NCBI GenBank assembly: GCA_020629695.1
Contig: JAHDCV010000007.1
Coordinates: 22,100-86,099 of the forward strand
DNA from: Acidimicrobiales bacterium
GTDB lineage: Bacteria > Actinomycetota > Acidimicrobiia > Acidimicrobiales > SZUA-35
Direction of reading: 5' to 3'
DNA length: 64,000 nucleotides
This document shows positions 11,856-24,890 of this stretch, in pieces (the stretch's first letter is position 1; each line of letters begins with the position of its first letter). Below the pieces are notes generated by a model. That model was not told the DNA's origin. It worked only from the letters and a program-made list of their open reading frames with translations, and did not search any database. The position numbers and the translations under genes were made by a program.

Positions 11856-13079
11856 TCAGCCCTTTGCGGCGGCGAGCCAACCGTCGACGAGGTCGCGGTT
11901 GTTCTCGATCCAGGTGGCCGCGAGGCCCTGGATGCACTCGGAGGTGTCGCAACCGTTGCCCTGCTCGACGTTGGCGAGCGAGACATCGATGACCGACAGG
12001 GTGATCTGCTCGAGGAGCGCCTCGGCAGCCGGGTTGGCAGCGAGGAAGTCGTTGTTGGCGGTCGCCAGGATGTCGGCGGCAGCCCAACCGGTCTGGCAGG
12101 TGTCGGTGGCAGCCGGGCACACGTCGGTGCCGATGGCGGCCGTGCCGGGACGCTGGTCGTGGGCCTCGCCGCCCTCGTCACCCGTGGGGTTCGAGTCGTC
12201 GAGGACCGTCTCCACGCCTGCCCAGTACACGTTCTGGCCGGGGACCAGCTGCGTGATGTAGGCGGACGGCGTCCAGGTGTAGATGACCATGGGCTCACCG
12301 GCATCGGCCTTGGCGACCGCCTCGGCGATCATGGCGTCGTAACCGGCGATGGTCTGCTGGATGTTCTCCCAGCCCGAGAACGCGATCATGTTGGTGATGA
12401 TGTTGTCGCAGGTCCAGGACTCCTGGCAGCCGTAGATGTCGGCGAAGCCGTTCCCGGGGACGGGGTCCCCGGCGTCGAAGGCGGCGAGGGCGTCAGCGTT
12501 GTTGTTGAGCTCGTCGAGGGTGTAGACGCCGAACTCATCAGCGAACGCCTTCGTGATCAGGAAGCCCTGGAGGCCACCGGCGATCATCTCCTCACCGACG
12601 ATCGACACGTGATCGCCGACCTTGCTGCCGTCGGGCATCTCGGCCTCGTGCCACGAGAAGTGACCGGGGTACCAGGAGTTGACCCAGAAGTCGAACTCGC
12701 CCTGTGCCATCGACAGGTAGGCGAGGGACGGGCCGAGCTCGAGCTCGGCGGGGTCGGTGACCTCGTAGCCGAGTTCCTGCATCAGCTGCTGGTACACGTA
12801 GGCCTGGAAGTAGCCGGTCGACCAGTCGGCGCGAGCCATGGTCACGGTGATGCCTTCGCCCGGAAGCTCCGACATGGCCTCTTCCATGGCCTCTTCGCCT
12901 TCTTCCATGGCTTCTTCGGCCTCTTCAGCGACCTCTTCGACGGCCTCTTCAGCGGCGTCGGCAGCGTCCTCGACCACCTCGGTGGCGGCGTCGGTCACGC
13001 TGTCCGAACCGCAGGCTGCGGCGATGAGCCCCAGCGCTGCGAGCAGCGCGAACAGCGCTGTTTTGTTGAGTTTCCTCAT
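11856..13079 (-). CDS. proX: Glycine betaine/proline-type ABC transporter substrate-binding lipoprotein
   Basis: MRKLNKTALFALLAALGLIAAACGSDS lipobox; ITVTMARADWSTGYFQAYVYQQLMQELGYEV...FDFWVNSWYPGHFSWHEAEMPDGSKVGDHVSIVGEEMIAGGLQGFLITKAFADEF (OpuAC fold); adjacent to permease and ATPase. Confidence 0.88.
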   Translation of the reverse strand: MRKLNKTALFALLAALGLIAAACGSDSVTDAATEVVEDAADAAEEAVEEVAEEAEEAMEEGEEAMEEAMSELPGEGITVTMARADWSTGYFQAYVYQQLMQELGYEVTDPAELELGPSLAYLSMAQGEFDFWVNSWYPGHFSWHEAEMPDGSKVGDHVSIVGEEMIAGGLQGFLITKAFADEFGVYTLDELNNNADALAAFDAGDPVPGNGFADIYGCQESWTCDNIITNMIAFSGWENIQQTIAGYDAMIAEAVAKADAGEPMVIYTWTPSAYITQLVPGQNVYWAGVETVLDDSNPTGDEGGEAHDQRPGTAAIGTDVCPAATDTCQTGWAAADILATANNDFLAANPAAEALLEQITLSVIDVSLANVEQGNGCDTSECIQGLAATWIENNRDLVDGWLAAAKG

Positions 13080-13174
13080 TGGTTCCCCTCCAAGGGTTTT
13101 GGTTGTGAGCGAGTTGCAGCAACCCAGCACACGTTGAGCGCTACAACGATAGTCCACCCTTGCGGGCAGACCGG

Positions 13175-13202
13175 GACAGCCCCCCATTTGAGGGGGGCTG
13201 TC
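13175..13202. terminator. Intercistronic hairpin between permease and substrate-binding protein genes
   Basis: GACAGCCCCCC-ATTTGA-GGGGGGCTGTC, 11-bp perfect stem. Confidence 0.6.
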
Positions 13203-13219
13203 GGAGCGTGACGAGATGA

Positions 13220-15361
13220 TCAGCCGACCGGAGCGGGCTCGGTCTCGTCGACGGTCAGGTCGACGGTCGCTGCGAGCGCAGCGTCCGTCCGAGCGGGTTC
13301 ATCGGCGTAGACCCGGGTGCGTCGGAACTCGTTGAGCACCGGACGGGCCGAGGCCAGGACGAAGAAGCCGGCGCACAGGGCGATGAAGGAGCCGACACCC
13401 GACACGAAATTCGGATCGGTTGCTCGTGCGAGCGTGCCGATCCAAGCGGCGCAGATGGCGAAGATGCCACCACCCATGCCGGCGAGCACGGTCGAGCCGA
13501 CCCATCGGAAGCGATCGTCGAGCCCCGCCAAGCCGGAGCTCAACACCGCGACGCCCAGTGAGATCACACCCAGAACGAGCGCCCAGATACCGAGGCCCGC
13601 CCCTTCGGACGTCCGTCCGTCGAGGATGATCTTGGCGTTCGTCTGTTGCGTGGTCTGCAGCGTGGTGATCTCGGCGGCGTAGACCGCGGCGTTCGCCGGG
13701 TCGGCAACCGCCTGCGCCTTCAGCTCGTCGATGCGAGCGAGATCATCGGCTGAGAGCACGGTGTCGGACCGGGTGTCGAACGACCACGCCGAGAACATCC
13801 CGATCGTCAGGAAGACCACGGCGATGACACCGGAGATGACCCGACCCCAGGCCACGCCCGACGGCAGCGGGTGCAGCGGCGAGTGGGGGGCGACCCGGAT
13901 CCACATCATCGTGCCGATGACGGCGACGAGTCCGCCGAGCAGGGCGAGGTAGACGCCGATGCCCTGACCAGGATCGACAGCCGCATCCGACGGCGCAGCG
14001 ATGAAGTGGCCGAAGGCCACGAGGAAGCCGATGAATGCGGCGATGGCGGCGCCGTCGGTGGTGAGCCAACGCAGCCCGCGACCGGGGCGGAGCATGACCT
14101 TGGCGATCGACCCCAGGATGATGAGGCCGGCGACGAGCACGAGATAGCCGAACCAGGATCCACCCGAGGCGGACAGACCCGAGAACGACTGGCCTTCCAG
14201 CTCGAGCTGATCGACGCGGCGGCTGTAGCCGCTGATCTTGCCCGCATTGGACGTCCAGGTGAGGAAGACCGACACGACCATCGCCAACGCGCCGACGCCG
14301 GCGACCATGATCCCGGGCCGCTCGGCGGCCATGACCGGGGCGAAGTAGGAGGACTCCTGCTTCTTCGACTCCTCGACCGCTGCGGCCTTCGCCGCCTCGG
14401 CCTCATCGAGCAGGGTCTCCGGATCGGAGCGGTGCGCCCACGCCATCTTGATGCGGCGGAACAGCCCGCCGGTCGACTCGCCGTCACGCTGGGAGATCCG
14501 GTCGAGCACGACCGCCACCAGGAAGAACGCGAGACCGGCCGAGGTGCCACGTACCACGGACTGGGTCGACAGCGCCTGGAAGAGCAGACGCCCGAGACCG
14601 CCGGCGCCCATGATCGCGGCGATGCCGAGCATCGAGATCGAGAGCAGCAGCGTCTGGTTGATCCCGGTCATGATCGCTGGTCGGGCGAGCGGGAGCTGCA
14701 CGTCGGTGAGCACCCGGCGTTCCGGGGCGCCGTAGGCACGAGCCGCTTCGACGACGTCCTCCGGCACCTGACGGATACCGAGGTTCGTGAGGCGGATGAG
14801 CGGCGGGACCGCGAAGATCATCGTCACCATGGTCGCGGAGACCGTGCCGATGCCCCAGAAGTAGATGAACGGGAGCATGTAGACGAACGAGTGCACGACC
14901 TGCATGGCGTCGAGCACCGGTCTGACCACCTGCCATATCCCGTCGATCCGCCCGCAGGCGATGCCGATGGGGATACCGACGATCACACAGAGGATCACGG
15001 CGACGCCGATGAACCCGATCGTCTTCGCGGTCTCGATCCAGTACTCGGTGCCGAGCAGACCACAGGTCGTCAATGCCACGCCGGTGAAGATCGCGACCTT
15101 GCCGTTCTGGGCGAGCCACGCGACGAGCATCATCGCCACGACGACGGTCCACCACGGGACCTTGACGAGGATGTCGTCCACGATGAGGTCGAGCAGGAAC
15201 TGGAACGGCCACTCGATGACGCTGAGTGCGCCGGTGGCCCGGGTGGCGATCCAGTCGACCGCCTGGTCCATCCACTCACCGAACGGGATGAGGAACTCAT
15301 CGAGCACGCCGTTGTCGTTGAGGGACTTGCCTTCGTCTGTTGCCTGTGCGAGTTCCATCAC
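13220..15361 (-). CDS. proW: Glycine betaine/proline ABC transporter permease with long C-terminal multi-TM extension
   Basis: IGVAVILCVIVGIPIGIACGRIDGIWQVVRPVLDAMQVVHSFVYMLPFIYFWGIGTVSATMVTMIFAVPPLIRLTNLGIRQVPEDVVEAARAYGAPERRVLTDVQLPLARPAIMTGINQTLLLSISMLGIAAIMGAGGLG; extension from about residue 305. Confidence 0.9.
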   Translation of the reverse strand: MMELAQATDEGKSLNDNGVLDEFLIPFGEWMDQAVDWIATRATGALSVIEWPFQFLLDLIVDDILVKVPWWTVVVAMMLVAWLAQNGKVAIFTGVALTTCGLLGTEYWIETAKTIGFIGVAVILCVIVGIPIGIACGRIDGIWQVVRPVLDAMQVVHSFVYMLPFIYFWGIGTVSATMVTMIFAVPPLIRLTNLGIRQVPEDVVEAARAYGAPERRVLTDVQLPLARPAIMTGINQTLLLSISMLGIAAIMGAGGLGRLLFQALSTQSVVRGTSAGLAFFLVAVVLDRISQRDGESTGGLFRRIKMAWAHRSDPETLLDEAEAAKAAAVEESKKQESSYFAPVMAAERPGIMVAGVGALAMVVSVFLTWTSNAGKISGYSRRVDQLELEGQSFSGLSASGGSWFGYLVLVAGLIILGSIAKVMLRPGRGLRWLTTDGAAIAAFIGFLVAFGHFIAAPSDAAVDPGQGIGVYLALLGGLVAVIGTMMWIRVAPHSPLHPLPSGVAWGRVISGVIAVVFLTIGMFSAWSFDTRSDTVLSADDLARIDELKAQAVADPANAAVYAAEITTLQTTQQTNAKIILDGRTSEGAGLGIWALVLGVISLGVAVLSSGLAGLDDRFRWVGSTVLAGMGGGIFAICAAWIGTLARATDPNFVSGVGSFIALCAGFFVLASARPVLNEFRRTRVYADEPARTDAALAATVDLTVDETEPAPVG

Positions 15362-16596
15362 ATGAACACCTCTCGCTCGAATCCGTCGATGAGGGACTCC
15401 ACACGTCCCATTTCCTTCATGATGTCCTGCGGGTCGAGGTTCCCGACCAAGCGGCCATCGGCGTCCACCACGGCGATCGGCAGGCCGCGACCGGCGGCCG
15501 CGTAGACGTCGTTGAGGGTCGTTTCAGGCGTGCACGACTCGAAATCCGAGCGCATCGCCTGGTCGATCGAGCTCGAGCCGACACTCTGTGCCCTGATGCC
15601 GTCGCCGGCGGTGAGCACGGCGATCGGCCGGCGATCGTCGTCGAGGACGAACACGCCGGCGCGGTCACCGATGTGCGTGAGCGCGTCGCCGAGAGCGAGG
15701 GAGCGGTCGACGGGGTGGGGCTCGGCCATGACCTCGTGCACCTGGATCACGCGACCCTGGTCGACGTCCTGCACGAACTCCGCGACGTAACCCGTCGCAG
15801 GCTGGGTGAGGATCTCTTCGGGAGTGCCGATCTGGACGACGGCGCCGTCCTTCATGATGCAGACTCGGTCGCCGATGCGGAGGGCCTCGTTCAGATCGTG
15901 GGTGATGAAGACGATCGTCTTCTTCAGTTCATTCTGGATCTCCATCATCTCGTCCTGCATCTGGCGCCGGATGAGCGGGTCGAGCGCCGAGAAGGCCTCG
16001 TCCATCAGAAGGATGTCGGGATCCGTGGCCAGCGCCCGGGCGAGACCCACGCGCTGCTGCATGCCGCCGGAGAGCTCCGATGGCATGTTCTGGGCATAGG
16101 CGTCGAGGCCGACCAGCGCGAGGGCCCGGAGCGACGCTTCGTCCCGCTCGGCCTTCGGCTTGCCCTGGACCTTGAGGCCATAGCCACAGTTGTCGATCAC
16201 CGAGCGGTGGGGGAACAGAGCGAAGTGCTGGAACACCATGCCCATCTTCTCGCGGCGGAAGGCCTGGAGTTCGGTGCCCTCCATCTGCTGGACGTCGACC
16301 CCGTCGACCATCACCCGACCGTGGGTGATGCCGTGCAGCTTGTTGATGGTGCGCAAGGCGGTGGACTTCCCGGACCCCGACAGGCCCATGATCACGAAGA
16401 TCTCGCCCTTCTTGATCCCGAAGTTGACGTTGTTCATACCGACCACGTGGCCGGACATGCGCTGCACGTCGTTCTTGCCGTAACCGGCCTCGCAGAGCTC
16501 AAACGCTCGTCCCTTCGGCTGTGGGCCGAAGATCTTGTAGACGCTCTCGAGCCGAATGATCTCGTCATTCGCTTCTGACACGTGTGTTCCCCTCAT
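15358..16596 (-). CDS. proV: Glycine betaine/proline ABC transporter ATP-binding protein with CBS domains
   Basis: IFVIMGLSGSGKSTALRTINKLHGITHGRVMVDG; LSGGMQQRVGLARALATDPDILLMDEAFSALDPLIRRQMQDEM; C-terminal CBS pair; start MRGTHVSEANDEIIRLESVYKIFG; 4-nt overlap with permease. Confidence 0.93.
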   Translation of the reverse strand: MRGTHVSEANDEIIRLESVYKIFGPQPKGRAFELCEAGYGKNDVQRMSGHVVGMNNVNFGIKKGEIFVIMGLSGSGKSTALRTINKLHGITHGRVMVDGVDVQQMEGTELQAFRREKMGMVFQHFALFPHRSVIDNCGYGLKVQGKPKAERDEASLRALALVGLDAYAQNMPSELSGGMQQRVGLARALATDPDILLMDEAFSALDPLIRRQMQDEMMEIQNELKKTIVFITHDLNEALRIGDRVCIMKDGAVVQIGTPEEILTQPATGYVAEFVQDVDQGRVIQVHEVMAEPHPVDRSLALGDALTHIGDRAGVFVLDDDRRPIAVLTAGDGIRAQSVGSSSIDQAMRSDFESCTPETTLNDVYAAAGRGLPIAVVDADGRLVGNLDPQDIMKEMGRVESLIDGFEREVFM

Positions 16597-16732
16597 CGTT
16601 GGACGTCGGAGACCATGGACGCAGGGCAGCGCTCGCGCAACTGACTCCCACGATGTGAACTCCGACACGTCGACGTTAGTGCACATCACCGTTCGTGATC
16701 CGACGAGCGAACGACCTTTGACGAAGCCGTAA

Positions 16733-16759
16733 CAGTTGCTTGCAGACCGCAAGCAACTG
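16733..16759. promoter_or_regulatory. 11-bp inverted repeat in the divergent intergenic region upstream of proV
   Basis: CAGTTGCTTGC-AGACC-GCAAGCAACTG. Confidence 0.5.
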
Positions 16760-16860
16760 ACGCCCGGTCGACGACCGTGCACCGGACGTTCGTCCAGTCG
16801 CTGCATACTCGTGCGCCGACCGAGCGTCACGACCGATGCTCCGTCGCCTCGAGGAGACAC

Positions 16861-17703
16861 ATGGGAGCGCTGCTGGGCGCCGTCAGCGCGATCTGTATCG
16901 GCATCGCCGACGTCCTGGGTCGACGCGTGGCCGAGACCAACAACGCGATCTCGCTCAGCGGCCTCCTCCAGATCGTGGCCGCAGCGACGGCTGCGATCGC
17001 TGTCGTCGTGGTGCCCTCGACCTGGATCGGCGGTGACGTCGCCCTCGGGCTCGCTTCGGGGCTCGGGCTGGGCGTCGGACTGGCGGCCTACTTCCACGCG
17101 CTGGGGGGATCGACCTCGACCGTCGTGGCGCCACTGGTCGGAACCCTCGTCGCCGTGCTCCCGTTCGCCTACACCGTCGGCACCGGCTCGTCGGTTCCCC
17201 CCGTCGCCATCGGGGGAGCGGTGCTCGCTCTCGGCGGGCTCGCGGTCCTGTCGTCCCGATCCAACGGCGCAACGACGACCGCCACGCAGATCCGACACGG
17301 CCTGCTGTGGGGATCGGTCTCCGGCCTCGGCTACGGATCCGGGCTCACCTTCGTGATCGAGACGGCGGCGGTTTCCGGCGCCTGGCCGTCGTTCGCCCAG
17401 CGGCTGTCGGCCGCCGTCTTCACCTTCGTGCTCGCGGCGCGACTCGGGCTCCCACTCTTCCCGAGTGCGACCCGACGATCGTTCGGGCTCGCCATCGTCT
17501 CCGGCACGGTCTCGGGCGTGGCGTCGCTGTCCTACCTGTTCGGTGTGCAGATCGACGCCCAACCGACCGTGGTCATGGCGTCGACGTTTCCCGCGGCGAG
17601 CGTGATCGGCGGGCGACTCGTGCTGGGCGACGAGGTCTCGGCCCGACAAGGGGTGGGTGTGCTCGCCACGCTCGCCGGCGTCGCACTCATCGTCGCGACC
17701 TGA
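16861..17703 (+). CDS. DMT/EamA family transporter
   Basis: MGALLGAVSAICIGIADVLGRRVAETNNAISLSGLLQIVAA; ~10 TM; GRLVLGDEVSARQGVGVLATLAGVALIV. Confidence 0.82.
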   Translation: MGALLGAVSAICIGIADVLGRRVAETNNAISLSGLLQIVAAATAAIAVVVVPSTWIGGDVALGLASGLGLGVGLAAYFHALGGSTSTVVAPLVGTLVAVLPFAYTVGTGSSVPPVAIGGAVLALGGLAVLSSRSNGATTTATQIRHGLLWGSVSGLGYGSGLTFVIETAAVSGAWPSFAQRLSAAVFTFVLAARLGLPLFPSATRRSFGLAIVSGTVSGVASLSYLFGVQIDAQPTVVMASTFPAASVIGGRLVLGDEVSARQGVGVLATLAGVALIVAT

Positions 17704-17769: not shown

Positions 17770-19125
17770 GTGCTGTCCGCGAACCACCGGGTCCGAATCG
17801 CCGTCATCGCCGGTGGATCGATCGCCGCGCTGTCACTCGGTGTGCGTTCGACCTTCGGGGTGTTCCTCGATCCCGTCGTCGACGGCCTCTCGATCGACCG
17901 CGGCACGTTCGCTCTGGCCGTCGCCGTGCAACAGCTCTTCTGGGGTCTCTCCCAACCGATCGCCGGTGCTCTGGCCGACCGGTACGGATCGGGGCGTGTC
18001 CTGGCCACCGGTGGCCTGCTCTACGCCGCCGGGATGATCGCCATGTCGAGCGCAAGCGACGGTGTGCTGCTCACGCTCTCCGCCGGGGTGTTGACCGGCA
18101 TCGCCGTCGGGGCAGCCGGGTTCTCCGTGGTGTTGGCATCGGTCGGGCGGATGGTGCGCCCGGAGCGTCGTGCGCTCGCCCTGGGTGTCGTCAGTGCCAT
18201 CGGATCGCTCGGCCAGTTCGTCCTGATCCCCGTCGCTCGGCAACTCATCGACAACGGCGGCTGGGAACGAACGGCCCGCGTCCTCGGTCTGATCGTGTTG
18301 CTCGTGGTCGTGGCGGCGCGGTTCCTCCTCGGCCGTTCGGCTGATTTCGCCGACTCGGGTGTCGCTGCACCCGAGGCGAGGCCCCTTCGGGCGGAACTCC
18401 GCCGCGCCGCCCACGCACCCGGATACCGGCGCCTCAACGCGGCGTTCTTCGTGTGCGGTTTCCACGTGACCTTCATCGGCACCCATCTCGTCTCCTACGT
18501 CGGCGATCTGCGCATCCGCCCCGAGGCCGCCGACCTCGCGCTCATGCTCATCGGCCTCTTCAACGTCGTCGGCTCCCTGGCGGCGGGCTGGCTCGGCAGC
18601 CGTCACTCGAACACGATGTTGCTCGCAGCGATCTACGGCCTGCGGGCCGTCGTCATCGCGGCGTTCCTCGTCGTCCCGGCATCCGCGGGCAGCGTGGTCG
18701 TGTTCGGCGCGGCGATGGGCGTCCTCTGGCTGTCGACCGTCCCGCTGACGTCCGGCATCGTCGCCGCGCAGTTCGGAACCACCCATGCCGGCACGTTGTT
18801 CGGCATCGTCTTCCTCTCCCACCAGTTCGGTGCGTTCGCCGGCGCGTGGCTCGGCGGCGAGCTGGCCGATGCCACCGGCAGCTACGACATCGCCTGGTGG
18901 ATCGGTGTCGCACTCGGTGTCGTGGCCATGTTGTTCCACATCGGACTGGACGAGGGCCCCGCACCCGATCCACCGGAGGTCGGTCCGGTGAGGCTGCGGC
19001 CGGCAGCGGGCATCGCTGCGGCGGGCCTCACCCTCGGCGTCGCCGGTGCCATCGCCCCCGCCCTGGCGGCTGCCGACGACGCCGCCGCCGGCGTCTCGCC
19101 CGTCTGCGCCCTCGATCTCACCTGA
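17770..19125 (+). CDS. MFS transporter
   Basis: GVRSTFGVFLDPVVDGLSIDRGTFALAVAVQQLFWGLSQPIAGALADRYGSGRVLATGGLLYAAG. Confidence 0.9.
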   Translation: MLSANHRVRIAVIAGGSIAALSLGVRSTFGVFLDPVVDGLSIDRGTFALAVAVQQLFWGLSQPIAGALADRYGSGRVLATGGLLYAAGMIAMSSASDGVLLTLSAGVLTGIAVGAAGFSVVLASVGRMVRPERRALALGVVSAIGSLGQFVLIPVARQLIDNGGWERTARVLGLIVLLVVVAARFLLGRSADFADSGVAAPEARPLRAELRRAAHAPGYRRLNAAFFVCGFHVTFIGTHLVSYVGDLRIRPEAADLALMLIGLFNVVGSLAAGWLGSRHSNTMLLAAIYGLRAVVIAAFLVVPASAGSVVVFGAAMGVLWLSTVPLTSGIVAAQFGTTHAGTLFGIVFLSHQFGAFAGAWLGGELADATGSYDIAWWIGVALGVVAMLFHIGLDEGPAPDPPEVGPVRLRPAAGIAAAGLTLGVAGAIAPALAAADDAAAGVSPVCALDLT

Positions 19126-19165
19126 CCACCGTCGGGAACCCACGTCTCAACACCAAGGAGCCCAC

Positions 19166-19816
19166 ATGGCACCGGTCCACGATCAACTCCTCGAACTGCG
19201 CCGCACCGGCGGAGCGATCATCCTGCTCACCTACCGAGGCGATTGGTGACCGTATTGCTGTGGCCAGCTCGTGCGGTTGGCCGCCGTGTCCGAACGCATC
19301 CACGCCGCGGGCGGTGAGGTCCTCGCCGTCAGCGTCGACGACGAGATCCGTCAGGCCGGCATGGCCGACCGATGGCCGACACCGATGGTCCGGTACGTGT
19401 CGGACCCCGGGGGAGCGGAACTGCTCGGCCCCCTCGATCTGTTCGACCCCGACGAGCGCGGCGGCATCGCGCTGCCCGGCATGCTCGTGATCGCGCCGGA
19501 CGGAATCGAGGTCTACCGATACCGCGGTCGCGACTTCGCGGACCGGACCACCGACGACGACGTGCTCTCGGCCCTCGAGGCCCTCGGACTCGAACCGGTC
19601 GAACCCGTCGACTGGGTCGGCGAGGTGGAGATCCCGGAAGACCTGCGCGGCTTCTTCCGGCCTTCGGACCTCGGCGCCTACTTCCGCGGGAACAAGTTCG
19701 GCGCCCTGGCGATCGGAAACCGCATCGAGGATCCCGCGGCTCGAGCACTCGCGAAGGAACATCGCGTCATGAGCGACGCCACGCTCGAGGCGTGGGCGAC
19801 CGTGCGCTCCGGGTGA
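19166..19816 (+). CDS. Predicted selenoprotein: thioredoxin-fold/peroxiredoxin-like protein with UGA-encoded Sec at 19247-19249 (residue 28)
   Basis: AAGGAG ribosome-binding site 5 nt before ATG; MAPVHDQLLELRRTGGAIILLTYRGDW-(TGA)-PYCCGQLVRLAAVSERIHAAGGEVLAVSVDD...; the TGA is the only in-frame stop across 217 codons and falls at the first Cys position of the WCPYC-type redox motif; bSECIS-like hairpin directly downstream. Confidence 0.88.
19260..19284 (+). promoter_or_regulatory. Candidate bacterial SECIS element
   Basis: Ten consecutive pairs (260-269 with 275-284, including three G-U wobbles), apical loop CGUGC with G at position 2; 20 nt between the UGA and the loop. Confidence 0.75.
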
Positions 19817-21789: not shown

Positions 21790-22554
21790 TCAGGCAGCCG
21801 GCCGATGACGGCGGGTCAGGAACTCGGGGTCGAAGCCGAACGGCAGCTCGAGACGATGTGCCTCGAGCAAGGCGGTGTCCGCGAGGATCGCCGGGGTCGG
21901 ACCATCGGCCACCACCCGTCCGTCCGACACGATGATCGACCGGGGACAGACCTCGAGCGCGAACGGCAGATCGTGGGTGATCAACAGCTGGGTGTGATCG
22001 AGGGTCTGGAGCAGATCGGCGAGTTCCCGACGACCGGCCGGGTCCAGCCCGGAGGTCGGCTCGTCCATGACGATCACGTCGGGCCGCATCGCCAGCACCG
22101 TCGCCAACGCGATGCGACGCTTCTCCCCACCGGAGAGATGATGGGGGCTCCGCTCGATGAACTCCGCCGCCTGCACCATCGCGAGCGCCTCGGCCACGCG
22201 TTCGTCGCGTTCGGTGCCCTTCAATCCGAGGTTGCTCGGACCGAACGCCACGTCCTCGCCGACGGTGGGCATGAAGAGTTGGTCGTCGGCGTCCTGGAAG
22301 ACCATGCCGACCCGGCGTCGGATCTCGGGCAAGGTGGTGTCGGTCAGCTCGGTGCCCGCGACGGCGATCGAGCCGGCCTCGGCGCGATGGATGCCGTTCA
22401 GGTGGAGGGCGAGGGTCGTCTTTCCGGCGCCGTTCGGTCCGAGCAGGGCGACCCGCTCACCGACATCCACGGTGAACGAGAGATCCTCCAGGGCCGGATG
22501 GCCGTTCGGGTAGCAGAAGGTGAGGCCGGCGACCTCGAGTGCGGGCACGGTCAT
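21790..22554 (-). CDS. Energy-coupling-factor ABC transporter ATPase (CbiO/NikO type)
   Basis: MTVPALEVAGLTFCYPNGHPALEDLSFTVDVGERVALLGPNGAGKTTLALHLNG; HHLSGGEKRRIALATVLAMRPDVIVMDEPTSGLDP. Confidence 0.92.
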   Translation of the reverse strand: MTVPALEVAGLTFCYPNGHPALEDLSFTVDVGERVALLGPNGAGKTTLALHLNGIHRAEAGSIAVAGTELTDTTLPEIRRRVGMVFQDADDQLFMPTVGEDVAFGPSNLGLKGTERDERVAEALAMVQAAEFIERSPHHLSGGEKRRIALATVLAMRPDVIVMDEPTSGLDPAGRRELADLLQTLDHTQLLITHDLPFALEVCPRSIIVSDGRVVADGPTPAILADTALLEAHRLELPFGFDPEFLTRRHRPAA

Positions 22555-23312
22555 GTGAGCAGTCCTCCCAGCGCTGCAACCGCAGCGAGCATCGGAACGA
22601 TGGCGGCCATGCGCCACTCCGCCGGGCTGGCCCGGCGGTCGTCCAGTGTCGGCATGGTGCCGTCGAATCCACGAGCGAGCATGGCGGCGTGGACGCGCTC
22701 GCCCCGCTCATAGGACCGCACGAACATCGCACCAGCGGAGGATGCGATCGGTTTGACCTGCCAGAGCCAACGGGCGTCATGCCCCCGGGCGACCATGGCG
22801 GTGCGCATCCGGCCGAGATCGGCGGTGATCAGATCGAGGTAGCGGAACATGAACGAGATCACCGACGTCACCAACGCCGGCACCCGGAGTCGTTCGAGCC
22901 CGCGCACGATGTCGGCCACCGGAGTGGTCGATGCGAGCACGATCGACGTCGTCGCGCCCAGCACGGACTTCGTCAACACGTTCCACGTGCCCCACAGCCC
23001 TTCCGTCGACAGGGACACGCCCAACACCTCGGTCGTGGCACCACCCGCGAGGAAGGGGAGGAAGAAGGCGAAGGTCACGAACGGCGCGATCACGGCCAGC
23101 CGTTTCACCACGAGCGACGGACGCAAACCAGCTCGGGCGATCCAGCACGCCAGCAACAGACCATGCAGCACGAAGACCCACACGGCTCGGCGCGGCGTGA
23201 CCGCGACGGCGAGGACGAAGGCGAACGCCGCGACGATCTTCGCCTCCGGCGCCATGCGATGGACGATCGTGTCCCCGGGGACGTGCAGTCGATGTGCGTG
23301 GCCGGCACCCAT
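22551..23312 (-). CDS. Energy-coupling-factor transporter transmembrane protein (CbiQ/NikQ type)
   Basis: IVHRMAPEAKIVAAFAFVLAVAVTP; FMFRYLDLITADLGRMRTAMVARG; GERVHAAMLARGFDG. Confidence 0.9.
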   Translation of the reverse strand: MGAGHAHRLHVPGDTIVHRMAPEAKIVAAFAFVLAVAVTPRRAVWVFVLHGLLLACWIARAGLRPSLVVKRLAVIAPFVTFAFFLPFLAGGATTEVLGVSLSTEGLWGTWNVLTKSVLGATTSIVLASTTPVADIVRGLERLRVPALVTSVISFMFRYLDLITADLGRMRTAMVARGHDARWLWQVKPIASSAGAMFVRSYERGERVHAAMLARGFDGTMPTLDDRRASPAEWRMAAIVPMLAAVAALGGLLT

Positions 23313-24307
23313 CAGCCGGCCAGTTCGTGCGCCGCACGTCGACCGGGCACGCCACTCACCGTGCGGAACACGCCGTAGCCGACCGCGAGGGTGAGGAGGG
23401 TGCCGCCGGCGCCGGCGATCGCGAGGCTGAGACTCTCGTTGCCGACCCCGGAGGTCGCGTAGTCGGCGAACACCGAGTTGCCCAGTGCGTGATCTTCGGC
23501 GGTGTCGACGAAGCCCTCGTCCTCCGCCACCCGCTCGAGTCCGTCGGGATCCCCACTGGCGAACTGACTCACGACGGTGGCCACGCCGAGGCTCACGACG
23601 AGTGCGCCCACCACGAAGGCCCGCATCGGGATCTTGCGAGCCGACGACAGCGCCACCCGATCGAGGTCACGGGCGCCGGCCACCAGGTCGGGACGAGCGG
23701 CGAGCACGGCCGAGACGACCATCGCGCTGATCACGGCCTCACCGATCCCGATCAGCAGATGCACGCTCACCATCGCGCCGAACACGGTGTCGAACGGCAC
23801 CGGTGCCGCCGCCCCGAACAGCCACTCGATCGAGAAGGCGGTGGCCGACAGCACGACACTCGCGAGTGCGGCGATCCCCGTGGCGCCGACCACGCCGCCG
23901 GCCGTCGACGGGAGGAACTTGCGGGCGAAGGTGAACACCGCGTAGCCGCCGAACGCGGGCACGATCGCCATGTTGAGGGTGTTGTAGCCGAGCGCGGTGA
24001 GTCCGCCGTCGGCGAAGACGAGCGCCTGCACGACCACGACGATGGCCACCACGAGCGCACCGACCCCGGGACCCAGCAGGATCGCCGCGAGCGCACCTCC
24101 CAGGAGATGCCCCGATGTTCCTGCGGCGACCGGGAAGTTCACCATCTGACCGGCGAACACGAAGGCGGCCGCGAGGCCGGCGAGGGGAATCTGCTTGTCG
24201 TCGAGCTCGTCGCTCGCCTTGCGAGCGGCCAGGCCGAGCAGGCCGGCGGACAGCACACCGGTGGACACGGCGGTGGCGGCGGTCAGGAATCCGTCTGGTG
24301 CGTGCAT
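23312..24307 (-). CDS. Substrate-specific component CbiM/NikM fused to PDGLE (N-type) domain
   Basis: MHAPDGFL N-terminus (CbiM Met-His motif); GTSGHLLGGALAAILLGPGVGALVVAIVVVVQALVFADGG; C-terminal GDPDGLERVAEDEGF. Confidence 0.92.
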   Translation of the reverse strand: MHAPDGFLTAATAVSTGVLSAGLLGLAARKASDELDDKQIPLAGLAAAFVFAGQMVNFPVAAGTSGHLLGGALAAILLGPGVGALVVAIVVVVQALVFADGGLTALGYNTLNMAIVPAFGGYAVFTFARKFLPSTAGGVVGATGIAALASVVLSATAFSIEWLFGAAAPVPFDTVFGAMVSVHLLIGIGEAVISAMVVSAVLAARPDLVAGARDLDRVALSSARKIPMRAFVVGALVVSLGVATVVSQFASGDPDGLERVAEDEGFVDTAEDHALGNSVFADYATSGVGNESLSLAIAGAGGTLLTLAVGYGVFRTVSGVPGRRAAHELAG

Positions 24308-24367
24308 GGCGCACTCCTTGGAGATCGGGGCGGAGCGGGGGATTCGCCCGGGGTCTCCCGGACCTTA

Positions 24368-24384
24368 TTGCAAGTGATTCGCAG
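24368..24384. promoter_or_regulatory. Candidate Nur/Fur-family operator
   Basis: TTGCAA-GTGAT-TCGCAG, resembling TTGCAA-N5-TTGCAA, in the CbiM/Fur-family divergent region. Confidence 0.45.
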
Positions 24385-24479
24385 CCACTCGAACCGTGCG
24401 GCACGCAACGAGTGCAGTCCGCAAAGGTCCGACCTCGCTTCCGGGGTCCCGAGGACCGGCAGCCACTAGGTTCCCGGCC

Positions 24480-24890
24480 GTGGATCTGGCCGAAGCACTA
24501 CAGACACGGGACCTCCGCCTCACCCGCCCCCGCCAACTCGTGTGGGACGTGCTCACGAGCGGAGACCATCATCTGACGGCCGCCGACATCGCCGCGGAAG
24601 TCCACCGGCGGGACGGCTCGGTGAACCTGTCGAGCGTCTACCGGGCGCTGTCGCTGTTCGCTGATCTCCGGCTGGCTCGCGAGTCCCGTCTCGGTTCCCC
24701 GGAGGGTTCGCATTGGGAGGCGGCCCATGCCGACGACGTCATCCACCTCGTCTGTGAGTCCTGCGGGGAGGTCCAACACCACCACGGCGATCAGATCGAT
24801 CACCTCCGGTCGCATCTCGGCTCCGATCACGGTTTCGAGGCGACCTGGTTCGACGTGGTCGTGCACGGACGGTGCGGCGAATGCCGTTGA
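24480..24890 (+). CDS. Fur-family metalloregulator (Zur/Nur-like)
   Basis: LRLTRPRQLVWDVLTSGDHHLTAADIAAEVHRRDGSVNLSSVYRALSLFADLRLARE; HLVCESCGEVQHHHGDQI; CGEC. Confidence 0.9.
   Translation: MDLAEALQTRDLRLTRPRQLVWDVLTSGDHHLTAADIAAEVHRRDGSVNLSSVYRALSLFADLRLARESRLGSPEGSHWEAAHADDVIHLVCESCGEVQHHHGDQIDHLRSHLGSDHGFEATWFDVVVHGRCGECR

Follow-up and report, generated by a model that had tools for sequence, protein, structure and literature searches.

We infer from the genomic evidence that the in-frame UGA of the gene at 19166-19816 is read as selenocysteine (Sec), and its product is almost certainly a selenoprotein. The gene lies on the plus strand of the window, the 64,000-nucleotide stretch of Acidimicrobiales DNA analysed here, and all its features given below are on the same strand. 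It shows the combination that marks bacterial selenoproteins, namely an in-frame UGA at a redox-active position for which Cys homologues exist. The overall explanation, which we regard as highly probable, is a selenoprotein of the peroxiredoxin fold in which SelB and an mRNA hairpin direct Sec to residue 28, creating a U-P-Y-C redox centre.

The gene forms one frame encoding 216 residues, of which residue 28 is Sec. The ribosome-binding site AAGGAG (19155-19160) precedes the ATG (19166-19168) by 5 nt. The start codon opens a segment of 27 residues, which is followed by the in-frame TGA (19247-19249, U28), a further 188 residues and the terminal TGA (19814-19816). With the TGA taken as U, the conceptual translation is MAPVHDQLLELRRTGGAIILLTYRGDW-U-PYCCGQLVRL...VRSG, and the active-site context of the single UGA is YRGDW-U-PYCC. 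Direct reading confirms the gene layout of the original prediction, including the single frame, the AAGGAG 5 nt before the ATG at 19166, the lone in-frame TGA and the stop at 19816. The extent of the complete coding sequence is further supported by full-length homologues that are 44-64% identical. In the mechanical list of open reading frames, the downstream part begins at the GTG at 19271. A standard gene caller would therefore lose the active site, as had been anticipated, and conventional annotation would probably truncate the whole family of such selenoproteins. The RGDWUPYC motif together with the hairpin provides a concrete pattern for repairing such truncated gene models.

The protein matches the Pfam families AhpC-TSA (PF00578; 39.6 bits versus a gathering cut-off of 26) and Redoxin (PF08534; 37.2 bits versus 26.6). 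Its AlphaFold model, in which Cys replaces Sec, adopts the peroxiredoxin fold (pLDDT 93.7, pTM 0.89), and the best PDB matches found by Foldseek are AhpC/PrxQ/Bcp peroxiredoxins. The UxxC motif U-P-Y-C and the vicinal Cys (U28, C31, and C32) occupy 19247-19261 and are embedded in strongly conserved surroundings. Among 31 aligned Sec and Cys relatives, R24, G25, D26, W27, U/C28, P29, C31, Q34, and L35 are invariant, and the same holds for D80, G83, P104, G113, D123, A125, D126, and R127 further downstream. Pro104 (19475-19477), located in the motif IALP, is judging from the fold the probable cis-Pro of the thioredoxin/peroxiredoxin fold.

The peroxiredoxin fold and the CxxC-type, thiol oxidoreductase-like site together characterize the product as a peroxiredoxin-fold protein with a thioredoxin-type UxxC centre. 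By analogy with known UxxC families, it would probably function as a thiol/disulfide or peroxide reductase, with U28 as the nucleophile and C31 as its partner. In such a cycle, the selenol of U28 would serve as the nucleophile of the U-P-Y-C centre and attack either a disulfide (of a protein or a small molecule) or a peroxide. U28 would then form a selenenylsulfide with C31, and a thioredoxin-type reductant would reset the U28-C31 centre. The roles of the two residues would be exchanged in a true peroxidase, where C31 attacks the peroxide and U28 is the resolving residue. This arrangement agrees with the profile alignment, in which C31 falls on the Cys of the SPVC motif of the thiol peroxidase 2cx3/4gqc and U28 on the Ser. 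We nevertheless consider it unlikely, because the classical TxxC site has Thr/Ser where this protein has Sec, and aligning the protein to ResA yields the standard CxxC layout, in which the first residue is the customary nucleophile. Moreover, Sec is the better nucleophile, and its N-terminal placement is that seen in redox selenoproteins of the UxxC type. The original prediction had put the TGA at the first Cys of a Prx-like WCPYC motif. Cys forms of this motif do exist, but the assignment has to be refined, as Sec aligns with the Thr/Ser of TxxC and C31 with the peroxidatic Cys. The chemistry of a peroxiredoxin scaffold that has Sec where Thr usually stands is directly testable.

The view of UxxC as an established signature of redox selenoproteins is in line with previous descriptions of a peroxiredoxin-like UxxC kind (PMC13188914, PMC9312934, PMC2398784). 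Prx-like thiol:disulfide oxidoreductase selenoproteins, assigned to PF00578 and carrying UxxC or UxxU, are listed in Table 1 of PMC13188914 and Table 1 of PMC9312934, and the GOS survey lists Prx-like 1/3 selenoproteins (PMC2398784, Table 2). Like the members of these groups, the window protein is prokaryotic, combines an AhpC-TSA domain with Sec as the first residue of UxxC, and has Cys homologues. Its PF00578 score lies over the gathering cut-off, and its Sec is part of a UxxC (U28-P-Y-C31) within that domain. The Redoxin-family UxxC selenoprotein (PF08534), also listed in PMC13188914, is similar in its Redoxin domain and UxxC, whereas the window protein scores better with PF00578. Classical PrxQ/Bcp/AhpC proteins have the same fold and the same position of the active-site loop, but the window protein is set apart from them by its CxxC-type site, where Sec occupies the place of the TxxC Thr. 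The segment R24-G-D-W-U-P-Y-C accordingly deviates from the classical PxxxT(S)xxC motif, as it contains no PxxxT and its Thr/Ser is changed to Sec. The sole NCBIfam match is the SelL-related model NF040769, a weak similarity around the active site that scores 22.8 bits, below the cut-off of 120 (20.9-54.8 in relatives), and no NCBIfam model covers the lineage above its cut-off. The gene is best called a further member of the described peroxiredoxin-like UxxC kind, the published representatives of which were compared by description only. The motif RGDWUPYC is absent as text from the searched literature, and searches for Acidimicrobiia selenoproteins likewise returned nothing on this family. Actinobacteria were described in 2006 as a selenoprotein-rich group, with five selenoproteins in Rubrobacter xylanophilus (PMC1794560).

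Reading the site locus by locus divides the family into two groups, subfamily 1 with YRGDWUPYCC, to which the window gene belongs, and subfamily 2 with mostly L/FRGDWUPYCNGQ. A SECIS-like hairpin begins 14 nt after the UGA. Its core, CCAGCU-CGUGC-GGUUGG, is located at 19264-19280, and the fold in the window extends to 19260-19284. The apical loop CGUGC (19270-19274) includes a conserved GU, the G of which lies 22 nt after the UGA. A hairpin just 3' of the UGA with a G/GU in its apical loop is the arrangement expected of a SECIS element, and SelB carrying Sec-tRNA(UCA) would bind here, leading to the insertion of Sec at residue 28. In subfamily 1 the hairpin has a 6-bp stem, and its loop is CGUGC in most members, with the GU present in 27/27 loops. 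All six stem pairs are formed in each of the 27 distinct sequences of this subfamily. When synonymous codons were permuted within each gene (2000 trials), full stems appeared in a mean of 3.1/27 and a maximum of 10/27 sequences, a comparison that ignores shared ancestry, so that the counts overstate independence; this affects compensatory changes less where they lie on separate branches. Compensation is seen at pair 4 (G-C/A-U/G-U), pair 5 (C-G/U-A), and pair 6 (U-G/U-A/C-G), and the A-U form of pair 4 occurs in L012, L016, L023, and L105, which represent separate branches of the tree. A related stem occurs in subfamily 2, with a single bulged base and a loop of GGUC or GGCC, and the full stem is formed in 21/28 sequences (shuffle maximum, 7). 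In five Rubrobacteraceae Cys genes, the full stem is never formed. Folding by energy only gives z values of about -1.2 for the Sec genes and -0.1 for the Cys genes; this test is weak alone, so the explicit stem test was used in its place. The hairpin matches no Rfam family, SECIS families included. As a separate observation, the sequence after the TGC of the Cys gene L046 from Rubrobacter sp. MGR_bin80 (GGG CAG CTG GTC .. .. GCC AGG) still matches most of the hairpin found in its Sec relatives, and it looks as if a SECIS remnant had persisted after a recent switch from UGA to UGC.

The codons around the UGA carry a corresponding record of selection. Synonymous divergence (pS) is 0.30 at codons +5 to +11, versus 0.57-0.65 in the surrounding codons. 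The 26 distinct subfamily-1 genes give a pN/pS of 0.38 over the 18 codons before the UGA, 0.15 over the nearest eight and 0.44 over codons +12 to +44. Purifying selection on either side thus indicates that the frame is translated through the UGA. A two-gene arrangement, with the UGA as a true stop and a restart at GTG 19271 that yields a 181-residue protein without the active site, is very improbable. It would match the mechanical calling of open reading frames, and some chains may indeed end at the UGA, since SECIS elements can leak. However, the 27 codons that precede the UGA show conservation as part of the same fold, supplying a beta strand and the active-site loop, and the Rubrobacteraceae Cys homologues run continuously across the same point. 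Moreover, termination at the UGA would leave the conserved hairpin without a purpose.

Reading the UGA as Sec is further supported by the conservation of the TGA across genomes. A congener carries the gene with 64% identity and the TGA at the same codon. The order sample of 299 genomes includes eight with the gene (the window's own and seven at 44-67% identity), all of which have the TGA, and one of the eight has a second TGA further downstream. In the class sample, 32 of 296 genomes give a match at E <= 1e-15, with the TGA at the same codon in 32/32, and no Cys homologue was found among the sampled Acidimicrobiia at the match threshold used. Scanning of named genomes revealed more members in Acidimicrobiales, Ilumatobacter, and Ilumatobacteraceae. 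A sizeable Sec family is thereby added for a poorly cultured actinobacterial group, in which Sec is kept almost without exception. Rubrobacteraceae possess both Sec and Cys relatives, and more distant bacteria have Cys forms only (RGDWCPYC). The Cys codon in Rubrobacteraceae and other relatives is TGC or TGT; the Cys homologues with WCPYC that had been predicted for the TGA position thus exist. One base separates TGA from TGC or TGT, and the host sequence is a draft in 121 contigs, so a broken Cys codon, arising in a pseudogene or through an error of sequencing or assembly, has to be considered. This is extremely unlikely, as the TGA is present in dozens of independent assemblies at 44-64% protein identity, the codons on either side of it are under purifying selection and the SECIS-like hairpin is maintained. 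Conservation of the TGA across genomes refutes this reading, and a misread TGC or TGT, which the original prediction had named as its potential refutation, is excluded because all close homologues carry TGA.

Several individual loci deviate from the common pattern. In four of them, L018, L043, L104, and L141 (Ilumatobacteraceae DT_55 and G213), a second TGA ends the Sec gene at about residue 144, reflecting either a frameshift or a real short form. In the Rubrobacteraceae-like family f103, the genomes G787 and G868 each apparently contain both a Cys member (no stop) and a TGA (Sec) member, and in two loci of this family, L151 with GDWDPYC (Asp) and L159 with GDWSPFC (Ser), the first active-site residue is apparently lost. 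At L045/L019, the record titled Acidobacteria bacterium SM_70_13 shares its gene with a genome assigned to the window's order, and that title looks wrong. The sole IMG/VR match, the viral L021, was rejected as a relative, as it is an unrelated zinc-ribbon-like protein sharing GDWCPYCC by chance. The plasmid search gave only one weak match (27%), to a Paraburkholderia record.

The host genome encodes the machinery required for Sec insertion. In the assembly (4.17 Mb in 121 contigs, 97% complete), contig C25 contains selA (400.6 bits versus a cut-off of 267.9), directly followed by selB (278.2 versus 242.25), as well as a tRNA-Sec with the anticodon UCA (67.2 versus 47). The selD gene is located on contig C48 and scores over its cut-off. 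The expectation that selA, selB, selC, and selD would be found outside the window is thus borne out, and the lack of SelB or tRNA-Sec in the source genome, which would have counted against a selenoprotein, does not apply. In addition, selD itself has an in-frame UGA (L020:1531-1533) at its known catalytic site, HGAGUACK, providing the host with a second, well-known UGA-Sec gene. Codes in which UGA specifies Trp occur in other bacteria, but decoding of this UGA as Trp or another amino acid, through a code change or a suppressor tRNA, can practically be dismissed, since UGA terminates ordinary host genes, ending both the selenoprotein gene and the upstream transporter gene (19123-19125), which argues against an altered genetic code, the tRNA-Sec and selA/B/D are present, and homologues have Cys, not Trp, at this position.

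The presence of the Sec gene is associated with that of SelB. SelB was scored with TIGR00475, and only matches over the cut-off were counted, because by E-value alone this model matches every genome via EF-Tu. SelB was detected in 36/38 genomes with the Sec gene versus 22/37 related genomes without it (Fisher p = 0.0003), although the genomes are related and hence not independent. The exceptions among the carriers are G517 (84% complete), with no SelB over the cut-off, and G190, with only a SelB fragment, a match of 219 bits in a short open frame. Two Sec genes are filed under other phyla (L049 as Chloroflexi, L052 as Acidobacteria), and their genomes have SelB over the cut-off. Cys forms are found in genomes both with and without SelB.

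Two changes of the Sec/Cys state are required on the 85-member tree, in which the Rubrobacteraceae Cys forms are nested within Sec branches. With the distant Cys relatives as outgroup, Sec appears to have been gained a single time near the base of the family, with one loss in Rubrobacteraceae. Because the outgroup is attached by long branches and support for the Cys/Sec fork in Rubrobacteraceae is weak, this direction of change is probable, not certain. A Sec-to-Cys conversion inside one family is also probable. More tentatively, these genes may constitute an undescribed Actinomycetota lineage in which Sec is the standing state and Cys has arisen from it at least once, in Rubrobacteraceae. Its Sec at the Thr position, combined with the retained Cys at the peroxidatic position, might confer a redox activity unlike that of both thioredoxin-like proteins and classical peroxiredoxins, a proposal that we hold to be possible and somewhat doubtful.

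No conserved neighbourhood was found among the relatives, only scattered pairs, so the gene context gives no pointer to a substrate or partner. Three relatives have a putative cation/proton antiporter gene, so identified by reading, next to the Sec gene (L023:2764-3993, L043:2768-3979, L028:5194-6378). Within the window, the region 21790-24890 contains genes of an ECF-type transporter (an ABC ATPase identified with Pfam, and CbiQ-/CbiM-like genes by reading) adjoining a Fur-family regulator, and this transporter probably serves metal uptake. On the minus strand, the genes at 11856-17000 look on reading like an ABC uptake system of the glycine betaine/proline type, composed of a binding protein, a permease, and an ATPase.
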